From an uncultured Micrococcales bacterium (GTDB lineage: Bacteria > Actinomycetota > Actinomycetes > Actinomycetales > Microbacteriaceae), in the NCBI GenBank assembly GCA_903834635.1, contig CAILJO010000067.1, forward strand, positions 1 to 64,000: a stretch of 64,000 nt of DNA, in the 5' to 3' direction. Of this stretch, positions 5,861 through 32,933 are shown one piece after another (the first letter of the stretch is position 1; each line of letters starts with the position of its first letter). The position numbers and the translations under genes were made by a program. The notes beneath the pieces were generated by a model. That model was not told the origin of the DNA. It searched no databases and saw only the letters and a list, made by a program, of their open reading frames with translations.

Positions 5861-6949
5861 ATGACGATTCAGTTTGAAGTAGTCCGAAACCCATCACCGA
5901 TGCCCGCGGCGCAACGCGCAGCCGTGCTCGAAAACCCTGTCTTCGGCCAGCACCGCACCGACCACCAGGTCATCTGCGTTTGGGAGAAAGACAAGGGTTG
6001 GACCAGCGCAAGGGTTGAGCCTTATGGCCCAATCACGATGGACCCAGCCGCTGCCGTGCTGCACTATGGCCAAGAGATTTTCGAGGGCATCAAGGCTTAT
6101 CGTCACGACGATGGCACGATCTGGACCTTCCGCCCGCTCGAAAACGCACGTCGCCTGCAGCGCAGCGCCGTTCGCATGGCACTCCCTGAGGTTCCTGAAG
6201 AACTCTTCATCGAGTCACTTCGCCAACTGATTGCGGTTGATGGCGACTGGGTTCCTGAGCCGGTCAACGAGAAGACGCTTTACATTCGCCCATTCGAGAT
6301 TGCCGCCGAAGACTTCTTGGGAGTTCGCGCCGCACATCGCGCTGAATACCGAGTGATTGCCAGCCCTGTTGGCCCATATTTCACCGGGGGGCTCAAGCCG
6401 GTTTCAATCTGGGTTGCCCTCGACTCAGCTCGCGCCGGCAAACACGGCACCGGTGAGGCCAAGACCGGCGGAAACTACGCGGCATCGCTCATGGCTCAGA
6501 ACGAGGGCTATGAACAAGGATGCTCGCAGGTTATGTTCCTCGACGCCGAGACCGCCACCTACATCGAAGAGCTCGGTGGCATGAACCTGTTCTTTGTTTA
6601 CAAAGACGGTCACGTCGTCACTCCAAGCCTCGACGGAACCATTCTTCGCGGCATAACTCGAATGTCTGTCATCCAGTTAATCAAAGACCGCGGCATTCAC
6701 ATCGAAGAGCGCAAGTTCACTCTCGATGAGATGCGAGCCGGCATCAACGGCGCAGACATCGTAGAGGTTTTTGCTTGCGGAACGGCAGCGGTCATCACAC
6801 CAGTCGGTCAGTTCAAGAGCCGCGAAGAGACCATCGGTTCTGCCGATGCCCAGCCTGGCGAGTTAACCGCGAGCCTGCGCGAAGAACTGACCGGAATTCA
6901 ATATGGCCGCGTGCAAGACCGCCACGGCTGGATGACACAGCTGGCCTAA
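5861..6949 (+). CDS. ilvE: branched-chain amino acid aminotransferase
   Basis: HYGQEIFEGIKAYR, KTGGNYAASL PLP-Lys region, EVFACGTAAVITPVG; ATG 5861 (track start 5738 too long). Confidence 0.95.
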   Translation: MTIQFEVVRNPSPMPAAQRAAVLENPVFGQHRTDHQVICVWEKDKGWTSARVEPYGPITMDPAAAVLHYGQEIFEGIKAYRHDDGTIWTFRPLENARRLQRSAVRMALPEVPEELFIESLRQLIAVDGDWVPEPVNEKTLYIRPFEIAAEDFLGVRAAHRAEYRVIASPVGPYFTGGLKPVSIWVALDSARAGKHGTGEAKTGGNYAASLMAQNEGYEQGCSQVMFLDAETATYIEELGGMNLFFVYKDGHVVTPSLDGTILRGITRMSVIQLIKDRGIHIEERKFTLDEMRAGINGADIVEVFACGTAAVITPVGQFKSREETIGSADAQPGELTASLREELTGIQYGRVQDRHGWMTQLA

Positions 6950-7707
6950 TGCGCGTCGCAAAATTTTCTATCGCGGGCGAGGCTCGATTTGGGTTAGTTG
7001 ACGGACCCGAGCTGGTCGTCTTCAAAGGTCACCCGTTGTTTTTCAACTATGAGACCACGGGCGAGCGCGTGCCGCTCAAAGACGTTCAGTTGTTGCCGCC
7101 AACCCTGCCAACCAGCAAGATCGTCTGCATCGGCAAAAACTATGCCGACCACGCAGCTGAGATGGGTGGCGACGCACCAAAAGAGCCACTCATTTTTCTC
7201 AAGCCGAGCACGTCGTTGATTGGCCATGGCGAAACCATTGTTCGCCCCGCTATCAGTGAGCGAGTCGACTTCGAGGGCGAGCTCGCCATCGTGATCGGTG
7301 CAATCGCCAAGGATGTCTCCGAGGCAGACGCCCTCGACTATGTCTGGGGCTACACAATCGCCAACGACGTAACCGCTCGTGACATCCAAGACAAAGACGG
7401 CCAATGGACCAGAGCTAAGGGCTTTGACACTTTCTGCCCGCTAGGCCCATGGATCGAAACCGAGTTCGAGCTCGATGGTCAAACGCTTGAGACGCGCGTG
7501 GATGGCGACCTTCGGCAGCACGCCAGCATCGACCTTTTGATTCACAAGGTGCCGCGCATCATTCAGCATGTCTCACAGGCAATGACGCTATTGCCGGGCG
7601 ATGTAATTCTGACCGGCACTCCTGCGGGTATTGGCCCGATGGAGTCTGGCGAAGTTGTTGAGATCTCAATCGAAGGCATCGGCTCGCTGAGCAACCCTGT
7701 CGAATAG
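6949..7707 (+). CDS. fumarylacetoacetate hydrolase family protein
   Basis: IVCIGKNYADHAAEMGG, GYTIANDVTARDIQ, KGFDTFCPLGPW, GDVILTGTPAGIGP; ATG overlaps ilvE stop (TAATG). The extreme 3' end is duplicated at 9171-9203. Confidence 0.93.
   Translation: MRVAKFSIAGEARFGLVDGPELVVFKGHPLFFNYETTGERVPLKDVQLLPPTLPTSKIVCIGKNYADHAAEMGGDAPKEPLIFLKPSTSLIGHGETIVRPAISERVDFEGELAIVIGAIAKDVSEADALDYVWGYTIANDVTARDIQDKDGQWTRAKGFDTFCPLGPWIETEFELDGQTLETRVDGDLRQHASIDLLIHKVPRIIQHVSQAMTLLPGDVILTGTPAGIGPMESGEVVEISIEGIGSLSNPVE
7670..7702 (+). repeat. 33-bp direct repeat, left copy (3' end of FAH-family gene)
   Basis: tcgaaggcatcggctcgctgagcaaccctgtcg, identical to 9171-9203. Confidence 0.98.
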
Positions 7708-7722
7708 TCTTGTTTTTTTTTG

Positions 7723-7739
7723 GAAAGGTGTTACCTTTC
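7723..7739. promoter_or_regulatory. inverted repeat GAAAGGT-gtt-ACCTTTC upstream of the first islet gene
   Basis: Perfect 7-bp arms, 3-nt loop, preceded by a T-run and about 27 bp upstream of the ATG at 7767; operator or attenuator candidate. Confidence 0.35.
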
Positions 7740-7766
7740 AAATAAATAATCTATTGGGGGATTTAA

Positions 7767-8333
7767 ATGAATGCTCATTCACTATCCAAGGTCAAGAAAA
7801 TTGTCCTGGTTTCAAGTTACTTAGTCTCAACTTCTTTGATCTCCCTTTCAGTCCTGCCACCTGCCCAAGCCAGCTCACTAGAAACGGCTCATCAGGGGAT
7901 TCATGGAAAGTTTCAGGAAAATGCCTGGGAAGCTCAAATAGACGATTATCTAGCCATGCACGAACCAAAATATCTTGGAGAAGCACCAGCCAACCCTCCA
8001 GTATTTGTGTTCAAATCCAAACCTCAGACAAAAATCCTTTCTTACCTAAAAAAGAAGAAAGCCTCTTTTCGGGTCGATAAGAAGTGGCTGAACGCAAGTC
8101 AACTTCTTGAACTTCGTGATTCGTTCAGCCCCTTTATCGACAAGTATTGTGGGCAGTCACCCAGCTTTCTGAGCGCCTATGGTTACGCGGGCAATCCGGT
8201 CACAGCTCACCTTGAGGTTCAGCTGGTCTCGGAATGCCTCGATTCACTAACCTCTCATTCATCAGAATTCCCAAATTTCAAGCGTTTAGATTTTCGTGTC
8301 TATGACTACTCTCAGCTTTCGTTTCATTGGTGA
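7767..8333 (+). CDS. hypothetical secreted protein (islet gene 1)
   Basis: ATG with GGGGG upstream; N-terminal signal peptide MNAHSLSKVKKIVLVSSYLVSTSLISLSVLPPAQAS; two cysteines in the mature part; no recognised domain. Confidence 0.7.
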   Translation: MNAHSLSKVKKIVLVSSYLVSTSLISLSVLPPAQASSLETAHQGIHGKFQENAWEAQIDDYLAMHEPKYLGEAPANPPVFVFKSKPQTKILSYLKKKKASFRVDKKWLNASQLLELRDSFSPFIDKYCGQSPSFLSAYGYAGNPVTAHLEVQLVSECLDSLTSHSSEFPNFKRLDFRVYDYSQLSFHW

Positions 8334-8386
8334 GGAATTGAACGTTTCGACTATCTAAGTCATTTTCCAGGAGCGAGGAGAAATCA

Positions 8387-9148
8387 ATGCTTAGCAATAA
8401 TATTTCAAACAAAGCCAGAGCACTCCTGGCCACTCTTGGGATAGCATTCACGTTTATAACCCCGTTGGTAGCTAGCACTGCTCTCGCGGATGAACCACAA
8501 TCGGCAAGTGATTCAAGCGATGGCGCACTGACTTTTGAAGGCTATTCTCCGGCCGCTGACGGCGAACTTGCTGATGACCTTGGTCAAAATTCTCAAATAG
8601 CTGTCCCTGACTCCTCGGGGGCTGAGCTCGAAACACCAGCATCAGACGAGTTTCTGAGCCCAGACGAAAATCCAATTAACGACGATGCAACCTTCGTGCA
8701 AAGTTACTTGGATCTTCCGATGTTCAAAGTCGAAAAGCTTATTTGGGATGCAGTAGAGCAAGGCAAAGGTATCAACATCTCCACGTTCCAGGGAGGCTCC
8801 GATCAGAAGTTGCAGATCATGACTAATGAACTGGGGAGAAATTACCTGCTGTCATATTTTGCTAACACAGGGCTCCTCGATTCTGTCGAGTTTCAAACTC
8901 CATCTGGCATGAACTGGAGCCATGTCTATTGGCTGCAGAATCAAGTGAGTGGGATTTTTGAGCAAGATTTACTGACTGGCGGTGTAGGTATTGGTATCAA
9001 TGGTGAAATCACGGTGATGACCAATCAGGCTGGCTATGAAGCTCTGGCAAGCCAGCTTCACCCGTCGGATATGCAAAATCTAACTTTTGAACTCGGAGAA
9101 GACATCAGCGTCGATTCTGAGGTTGGCTCGGGTTTGGCAAAACCGTAG
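8387..9148 (+). CDS. hypothetical secreted protein (islet gene 2)
   Basis: GAGGAG RBS; signal peptide MLSNNISNKARALLATLGIAFTFITPLVASTALADE; acidic linker then a ~130 aa domain; no recognised family. Confidence 0.75.
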   Translation: MLSNNISNKARALLATLGIAFTFITPLVASTALADEPQSASDSSDGALTFEGYSPAADGELADDLGQNSQIAVPDSSGAELETPASDEFLSPDENPINDDATFVQSYLDLPMFKVEKLIWDAVEQGKGINISTFQGGSDQKLQIMTNELGRNYLLSYFANTGLLDSVEFQTPSGMNWSHVYWLQNQVSGIFEQDLLTGGVGIGINGEITVMTNQAGYEALASQLHPSDMQNLTFELGEDISVDSEVGSGLAKP

Positions 9149-9170
9149 TTAGCAATAGTTCCACAAGCAT

Positions 9171-9203
9171 TCGAAGGCATCGGCTCGCTGAGCAACCCTG
9201 TCG
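9171..9203 (+). repeat. 33-bp direct repeat, right copy (duplicated FAH-family gene 3' end)
   Basis: Identical to 7670-7702; reads in frame (F)[14 protein letters not shown] ending 14 nt before the gltX ATG. Confidence 0.98.
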
Positions 9204-9221: not shown

Positions 9222-10727
9222 ATGACTTCTTCAGCGATCACCGCACCTTTCACCACCGCAACCGGATCAGACGTTGTGGTGCGTTTCTGCCCATCACCAA
9301 CTGGAACCCCGCACGTTGGTCTTGTTCGCACCGCCCTCTTCAACTGGGCCTATGCGCGTCACACCGGGGGCAAGTTTGTTTTTCGCATCGAAGACACCGA
9401 CGCCGAGCGCGACAGTGAGGAGTCGTTCGAAATGATTCTCGAGGCCCTGCGTTGGCTAGGCCTCAACTGGGATGAAGGCGTCGGCGTTGGCGGGCCGAAC
9501 GAGCCTTATCGTCAGTCTCAGCGCACCGATATCTATCTAGAAATCGTCGAAAAGCTCAAGGCTTCGGGCCATCTGTATGAGTCATACATGAGCGGCGAAG
9601 ACATCGATGCCCGCAATGAAGCCGAGGGTCGCGCCAAGCAGCTTGGCTATGGCAACTGGGAGCGCGATGCATCTGAGCGCGCCAAATACATCAAAGATGG
9701 CGTCTCGCCAGCTCTGCGCCTTCGCGTGCCCGACGTAGACATCACCTTCGACGACCTGGTTCGTGGCGAAATCACTTTTCCGGCAGGGTCGTTTCCTGAC
9801 TTTGTAGTGGTTCGACCAAACGGTCAGCCGCTCTATACGCTGGTCAACCCGGTTGACGACGCGCTGATGGGTATTACGCATGTTCTTCGTGGCGAAGACC
9901 TGCTGTCTTCGACCCCTCGCCAGATCGCGCTCTACAACGCGATGTTCGAGGCAGGCATCACCAAGTTCATTCCGCGCTTCGGTCACCTGCCTTATGTGAT
10001 GGGCGAGGGCAACAAGAAACTTTCTAAGCGCGACCCTGAGTCGAACCTCTTTCACCACCGCGACCGTGGATTCATTCCAGAGGGTCTGCTCAACTACCTG
10101 GCTCTTCTCGGGTGGGGCATCAGCGCAGAGCGCGACATCTTCAGCCTCGACGAGCTAGCCGAGCACTTTGATGTCGAAAACGTGAACCCAAACCCTGCAC
10201 GCTTCGACCAGAAGAAGGCAGACGCCATCAACGCGTCACACATCCGCCTGCTCTCGGTTGACGATTTCGCCGAACGCCTGATTCCTTACCTGCAGTCAGC
10301 GGGCGTGCTTGGTCACCAAATCTCCGATGTCCAAAGGGCGACCCTCAAGGCCGCGGCACCTTTGGTGCAGGAGCGCATGGTCGTGTTGAGCGAGGCTCCG
10401 GGACTTCTCGGTTTCTTGTTCAAGACCGCCGACGAGATCGTGATCGAAGACGATGCTCGCGAGGGTATGCCAGAGAACGTGGGCGAGGTGCTGGCGGCAG
10501 CCATCGGTGCGCTCGAAAACGTTAGCGATTTCAAGACCGAAGCCATTCAAGAAGCCCTAAACCACGCCCTGATTGAGGTGCTTGAACTAAAGCCGAGATT
10601 CGCCTTTGGCCCGCTGCGCACTGGCATTTCGGGGCGTCGAATCTCTCCGCCACTGTTCGAGTCGATGGAGATCTTGGGCAAAGAAGAAACGATCAAGCGT
10701 CTCGCTGCGTTTGCTCGAACGGTCTAG
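9222..10727 (+). CDS. gltX: glutamyl-tRNA synthetase
   Basis: [32 protein letters not shown] (HIGH-type motif), KLSKRDPES (KMSKS-type). Confidence 0.97.
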
Positions 10728-32270: not shown

Positions 32271-32299
32271 TATTTTCGTTTGCTGGCAAGCAGCAAGCC
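32271..32299 (-). repeat. 29-bp direct repeat, distal copy (duplicated 3' end of O-methyltransferase gene)
   Basis: tattttcgtttgctggcaagcagcaagcc, identical to 32305-32333; 5-bp spacer ttgtt. Confidence 0.97.
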
Positions 32300-32303
32300 T
32301 TGT

Positions 32304-32933
32304 TTATTTTCGTTTGCTGGCAAGCAGCAAGCCGTCACCAATCGGTGACATGACAGAGACGAAGTCATCGTTGTTGACAAAGAATCGAAGAGCATCACGA
32401 TACGTTGCGGTGGTTTCGTCGCGAATCGCGGGGTCTGGCACGCGGTCGCGCCAAAGTGCATGGGCGATGGCCACCACTCCACCAGGTCGCAGCAGTCGTG
32501 ATGCCTCGTGAAGTTGAAGTTCCAAAGTTTCTCGGTCGGCGTCGAGAAAAACCAAGTCATAGGCGGCATCGGCCATGTTGGACATGACCTCGCTGGCGCG
32601 CCCCTTAATCACTCGAGTGCGAGATGCAGCGATTTTGGCGTCTTTGAACGATGCCTTGGCGGCGGTCTGGTGCTCTGATTCGGTGTCGATGGTGGCCAAG
32701 ACGCAGTCATCGTTGCCGCTTAGCAACCAAAGGCCTGAGAGACCTGATCCGGTTCCGGCTTCGACAACTGCCTTGGCTCCAAGGGCCGAAACCAGCAGGG
32801 CAAGGTGAGCTCCGGTTGCGCCGGTGATGCATTCAACGCCAAGTTCTTCGGCGCGCATTCTGGCGCGCACCATGGCGTCGGCTTCGTCGACGAAGTCTTC
32901 GGCGTATTTCCAAGAATTGATTTTGTCTACCAT
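32304..32933 (-). CDS. O-methyltransferase family 3-like SAM methyltransferase
   Basis: AKAVVEAGTGSGLSGLWLLSG, DLVFLDADRETLELQLHEASRLLRPGGVVAIAHALW; ATG 32933 (track extension to 33152 overlaps tatB-like gene). Confidence 0.88.
   Translation of the reverse strand: MVDKINSWKYAEDFVDEADAMVRARMRAEELGVECITGATGAHLALLVSALGAKAVVEAGTGSGLSGLWLLSGNDDCVLATIDTESEHQTAAKASFKDAKIAASRTRVIKGRASEVMSNMADAAYDLVFLDADRETLELQLHEASRLLRPGGVVAIAHALWRDRVPDPAIRDETTATYRDALRFFVNNDDFVSVMSPIGDGLLLASKRK
32305..32333 (-). repeat. 29-bp direct repeat, genic copy
   Basis: Encodes GLLLASKRK C-terminus of the methyltransferase. Confidence 0.97.

Follow-up and report, generated by a model that had tools for sequence, protein, structure and literature searches.

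We find that ORF1 and ORF2, two genes for secreted-looking proteins, very probably make up the entire cargo of a 1.47-kb islet that was acquired recently at an insertion hotspot, where a leuB-ilvE-FAH gene run meets the region upstream of gltX. The initial annotation could only suspect an insertion here; its borders are now fixed within the window, that is, the whole 64,000-nucleotide stretch of DNA that was analyzed. Across the genus, whose members have small genomes, that junction has repeatedly taken up short inserts, several of which encode secreted proteins. The features of the locus are as follows.

6949 to 7707, forward strand: core gene for an FAH-domain hydrolase (PF01557, E = 2.1e-72), the upstream neighbor, with its 3′ end duplicated
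7670 to 7702, forward strand: left copy of a perfect 33-bp direct repeat made up of the FAH-hydrolase 3′ end, with a native 5′ flank and a foreign 3′ flank
7703 to 9170, forward strand: the islet, read as an insertion (1468 bp, GC about 0.454), with genes missing from the other genus genomes searched
7723 to 7739, no strand assigned: perfect dyad GAAAGGTGTTACCTTTC upstream of ORF1, a possible operator
7767 to 8333, forward strand: ORF1, ATG start, 188 aa, predicted signal peptide, two cysteines in the mature part, orphan
8387 to 9148, forward strand: ORF2, ATG start, 253 aa, predicted signal peptide, acidic linker, C-terminal domain, orphan
9171 to 9203, forward strand: right copy of this 33-bp repeat, with a foreign 5′ flank and a native 3′ flank (CCTAAACTTGAAGTCATA) toward gltX
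9222 to 10727, forward strand: core gene resembling gltX (glutamyl-tRNA synthetase; name assigned from sequence), the downstream neighbor, with its native upstream region kept

Borders of the islet

The edges of the islet are the two copies of the 33-bp repeat, which is 100% identical between copies and duplicates the FAH-hydrolase 3′ end. Over distances of up to 15 kb, no exact direct repeat of the window exceeds it in length. The left copy runs on from the native FAH coding sequence. The right copy leads into the native gltX upstream region, which reads CCTAAACTTGAAGTCATA before the ATG and is nearly alike in the sister genome G014 (CCTAAACTTGAAGTCACA). Native and foreign halves are therefore reciprocal across the two copies, which argues for a real, recent insertion of 1.5 kb. 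The sister genome differs at several of the 33 positions, and thus the identity of the copies also points to a recent event. Allowing up to three mismatches, the 28-bp core of the repeat has two copies in the genome, both at the islet ends, and no other pair of exact direct repeats longer than 23 bp was found in about 144 kb sampled from this genome and three relatives.

The source contig (contig 67; 65,132 bp) belongs to a 1.49-Mb draft genome in 147 contigs, 93.7% complete and with an estimated contamination of 4%. In a draft of this kind, an islet from elsewhere could have been joined at a repeat during assembly. Such a chimera is scarcely credible here, given that the repeat core occurs exactly twice, at the islet ends, and that seven other genomes carry mostly unrelated inserts at the same junction.

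After the insertion, the FAH reading frame still closes as ...SNPV-x-stop. With that end of the frame intact and the gltX upstream region native, the spot is therefore selectively safe. The insertion duplicated 33 bp at the FAH 3′ end, and the DNA would have entered either by a single crossover within this stretch or by its fill-in. The reciprocal flanks would be explained equally well by a circle that carried the end of the FAH gene and by a staggered-break insertion with target duplication, and the recombination machinery would have been supplied from elsewhere.

Further repeats were observed at two places away from the islet. A tandem 29-bp direct repeat (TATTTTCGTTTGCTGGCAAGCAGCAAGCC) with a period of 34 lies at positions 32271-32333 of the window, just past a terminator-like hairpin. 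Elsewhere in the same genome (L079:9661-11303), several direct repeats of 18-23 bp are spaced 0.7-1.6 kb apart, possibly within a repetitive protein gene.

The FAH-gltX junction across the genus

The FAH-gltX neighborhood is widespread in the genus, and we take it as ancestral. We surveyed one genome per species, mostly drafts. Both genes were resolved in 40 genomes, and the gap between them is 9-64 bp in 32 of these. The remaining eight carry inserts of 0.6-4.2 kb, mostly of unrelated DNA, giving gaps of 1517 bp (the window), 1183 bp (G023), 973 bp (G039), 1750 bp (G056), 2213 bp (G011), 620 bp (G001), 2129 bp (G012), and 4202 bp (G054). Two more genomes, G051 and G020, have inserts visible from one side only and stand outside this count. 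As controls, the ilvE-FAH junction was interrupted in 0 of 39 genomes (largest gap 42 bp) and the junction from gltX to tRNA-Gln in 1 of 28 (G039). The difference between 8/40 and 0/39 has a one-sided probability of about 0.003, with the relatedness of the genomes ignored. The junction thus has the character of an insertion hotspot, being mostly empty in relatives and holding different DNA in several. The suspicion of a foreign islet with two secreted-looking orphans as its sole cargo is borne out by the 33-bp repeat, the short gap in most relatives, and the inserts in other genomes.

A TA(G/A)ACT-like element beside gltX is retained at most occupied junctions. In many loci of the genus upstream of gltX (e.g., L022), the FAH stop codon TAG opens TAGACTTG. 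This stretch resembles the −10 element of a gltX promoter, and the FAH gene may therefore end within that promoter.

The cargo of the other inserts is varied. The G054 insert encodes a secreted trypsin-like protease (PF00089) together with a GT8-domain protein, and in G051 a secreted trypsin-like protease lies immediately downstream of FAH. The G011 insert has a minus-strand gene for a secreted matrixin-like protease (PF00413), along with a PadR regulator and a membrane protein. The G023 insert also encodes a PadR regulator and a membrane protein of similar appearance, and this pair may be recurrent cargo. The G039 insert encodes a DUF4236-like protein of 54 aa (E = 0.0031, under the curated cut-off) and a secreted-looking orphan of 256 aa, while those of G056 and G001 encode, respectively, a DUF3238-matching protein with a small membrane protein, and a low-complexity, secreted-looking protein of 148 aa. 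Cargo that is not secreted also exists, namely, the PadR regulator and membrane protein of G023 and an MFS transporter in G012.

Similar genes were seen at two other junctions. In G033 (L094:2077-3805), a secreted trypsin-like protease and an exported-looking protein of 198 aa lie between a methyltransferase gene and leuB, a junction of the same gene run further upstream. G039 has a second insert, between gltX and tRNA-Gln (L016:2988-4468 and L112:4-1412), encoding a secreted trypsin-like protease and a secreted-looking companion of 217 aa. The Lys-rich tail of this companion is like that of the 256-aa orphan across gltX.

Duplication of a gene's 3′ end that leaves the gene intact is a classic footprint of site-specific integration. 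The islet might therefore be what is left of a site-specific integrative element targeting the FAH 3′ end, or have been carried in by one, with the repeats as attL and attR and with a recombinase that acts in trans or was lost. Elements that have attL and attR without recombination genes have been described as CIMEs, cis-mobilizable elements whose genes for integration and transfer have been lost (PMC5704250). The islet repeat, with the target 3′ end present at both borders and the gene kept intact, fits this origin, as do the reciprocal flanks. However, no ORF in the islet or in the FAH-gltX inserts read was recognized as a recombinase gene, the 28-bp core was missing from viral contigs, and the other seven two-sided inserts lack a duplicated FAH end (best p = 0.1). 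We thus regard an integrative element as possible but on the unlikely side. The earlier proposal that the islet is itself mobile was not sustained, as it holds no recombinase. Because those seven inserts show no duplicated FAH end, the mechanism that formed the repeat may be peculiar to the insert in the window.

Alternatively, the islet could have come in by homologous recombination, with the repeat having arisen earlier in a donor lineage; hotspots without mobile elements have been proposed to operate in this manner (PMC5635113). The inserts mostly differ by species, and those read have no recognized mobility genes, which agrees with a donor-lineage origin. This origin leaves the 33-bp duplication itself unexplained, and no islet-bearing donor was seen among 67 genus genomes; we consider it a reasonable candidate that falls somewhat short of probable.

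Whichever route brought in the islet, lineages of the genus appear to fill the FAH-gltX spot with differing short cargo, often genes for secreted proteins. A bolder generalization would be that tiny, recombinase-free cassettes, carrying only secreted orphan or protease-related cargo, insert genus-wide at one housekeeping 3′ end, duplicating it with machinery acting in trans. We think it quite doubtful that this is so. The junction nevertheless offers a compact site for studying how exported proteins are acquired by small genomes when no mobile element is visible.

The two secreted-looking orphans

On re-reading, the coordinates, shared orientation, and 53-bp spacing of ORF1 and ORF2 agreed with the initial annotation. 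The features it had described are likewise present in the translations: N termini that resemble signal peptides (read by eye, with cleavage between AQA and SS in ORF1 and between ALA and DE in ORF2), two cysteines in the mature part of ORF1, and, in ORF2, a linker rich in Asp, Ser, and Glu followed by a C-terminal domain. Composition is also unlike that of the neighboring genes, as it had claimed. Relative to seven neighbors, ORF1 and ORF2 are lower in GC (0.448 and 0.479 versus 0.556-0.598, about 57%), GC3 (0.44 and 0.47 versus 0.52-0.72), and codon index (0.55 and 0.54 versus 0.61-0.79).

Dinucleotide shuffling of the islet, repeated 2000 times, never produced a longest ORF of 253 codons or a second-longest of 188 codons; thus, the lengths of the two ORFs are not chance products. 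Shine-Dalgarno-like sequences precede both ORF1 (GGGGGA) and ORF2 (AGGAGCGAGGAG). The two genes may be cotranscribed from the AT-rich stretch that holds the dyad, which has no further copy in this genome or the other 66 genus genomes. Judging from their N termini, the products would be exported by Sec.

Neither protein could be assigned to a family at any search sensitivity used, as originally stated. Nothing usable was found for ORF1 or ORF2 in Pfam, NCBIfam, PHROGs, PADLOC, PDB sequences, or Rfam, and there were no homologs in 98 relatives or the 67 genus genomes and no relatives in viral contigs, phages, or plasmids. Among 393 genomes of the family, no homolog was accepted and one match (E = 0.005) was discounted. 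None was found among 85,462 GTDB species genomes, in a search sensitive to close relatives only, which distant homologs could escape. Structures of these two proteins, for which no relatives were detected, would be new information.

Several marginal matches were set aside. Those to DUF4891 (E = 0.098), PRK05537 (E = 0.17), and 8pjw (E = 0.0024; no single stretch passes alone) were taken as chance. A match in G018 (E = 0.065) lies within an ORF of 260 aa that resembles an unrelated aminotransferase-type enzyme, and the discounted family-level match (G398) lies within a frame of 1830 aa that resembles a YD-repeat protein; with 393 genomes searched, such a match is expected by chance. An internal repeat in ORF2 had p = 0.056. 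ORF1 bears a visual likeness to the 217-aa companion of the G039 protease, which was not significant (p = 0.12 to 0.36).

Single-sequence models of the two proteins were too poor for firm structure matches. That of ORF1 (pLDDT 52) is uninformative. The model of the ORF2 C-terminal domain (pLDDT 65) has two predicted alpha-beta-beta-alpha-beta units, arranged as helix-strand-strand-helix(-strand). A structure search with it yielded no match at E ≤ 0.001; matches begin at E = 0.05, with ferredoxin-like subdomains among the local ones.

Orphan propeptide-like domains were among the roles originally suggested. For ORF2, this would mean a free-standing prodomain that helps to fold, or inhibits, a secreted trypsin-like (S1) protease and that either persists as its companion or is what remains now that the catalytic part has been lost. 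The predicted topology counts weakly in its favor. So do the secreted S1 proteases with N-terminal pro-regions found at FAH-gltX in G051 and G054, between the methyltransferase gene and leuB in G033, and downstream of gltX in G039, there with a secreted companion gene. In addition, the summed BLOSUM62 similarity of ORF2 to ten S1 pro-regions (12.3) exceeded that of all 70 control fragments (maximum 10.7), although these were drawn from window proteins rather than secreted ones, so that composition could add to the result. With BLOSUM45, however, the sum of 9.7 fell within the controls (maximum 10.4), and one favorable result among several such comparisons carries little weight.

Profile searches with the S1 pro-regions, whose alignments are themselves unreliable, placed ORF2 among unrelated window proteins; PF02983 gave it no match, and the structure search none at E ≤ 0.001. 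ORF2 has no catalytic part, its operon has no S1 protease (its neighbors are ORF1 and gltX), and its own genome showed no S1 protease of the kinds seen in G033, G039, G051, and G054. We therefore consider a prodomain origin of ORF2 unlikely. The propeptide suggestion thus survives weakly for ORF2 and fails for ORF1, which shows no similarity to the S1 pro-regions.

No test of function was positive for either protein. The most likely function that we can offer, with low confidence, is that the ORF2 C-terminal domain is a binding or folding module of the protease-prodomain type and that ORF1 is its disulfide-bonded companion.

Relation to known systems

In prodomains of the alpha-lytic/streptogrisin type (PF02983), small alpha/beta units are joined to an S1 protease that is secreted. 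The predicted topology of ORF2 may be compatible with them and serves as a lead only. In contrast to these prodomains, ORF2 has neither a sequence or profile match to the family nor an attached protease domain.

The closest parallels for the locus concern its architecture. Like the replacement flexible genomic islands of aquatic prokaryotes, for which a boundary-homology model has been put forward, it holds different cargo from one related genome to the next while its position stays fixed (PMC4033161). With hotspots lacking mobile elements (PMC5635113), it shares a fixed pair of core genes with varying, mostly unrelated cargo between them, the lack of a recognized integrase in the inserts read, and a site that is empty in most genomes. 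It differs from them in that the inserts are very short (0.6-4.2 kb) and often encode secreted proteins, and in that the 33-bp duplication of the islet is not explained by pure homologous recombination. Like a CIME (PMC5704250), the islet contains no recombinase and lies between direct repeats that correspond to a gene's 3′ end, but it spans only 1.5 kb, no related integrative element was seen at the site, and its repeat is only a candidate recombinase substrate. The islet thus shares features of both hotspots without mobile elements and CIMEs.
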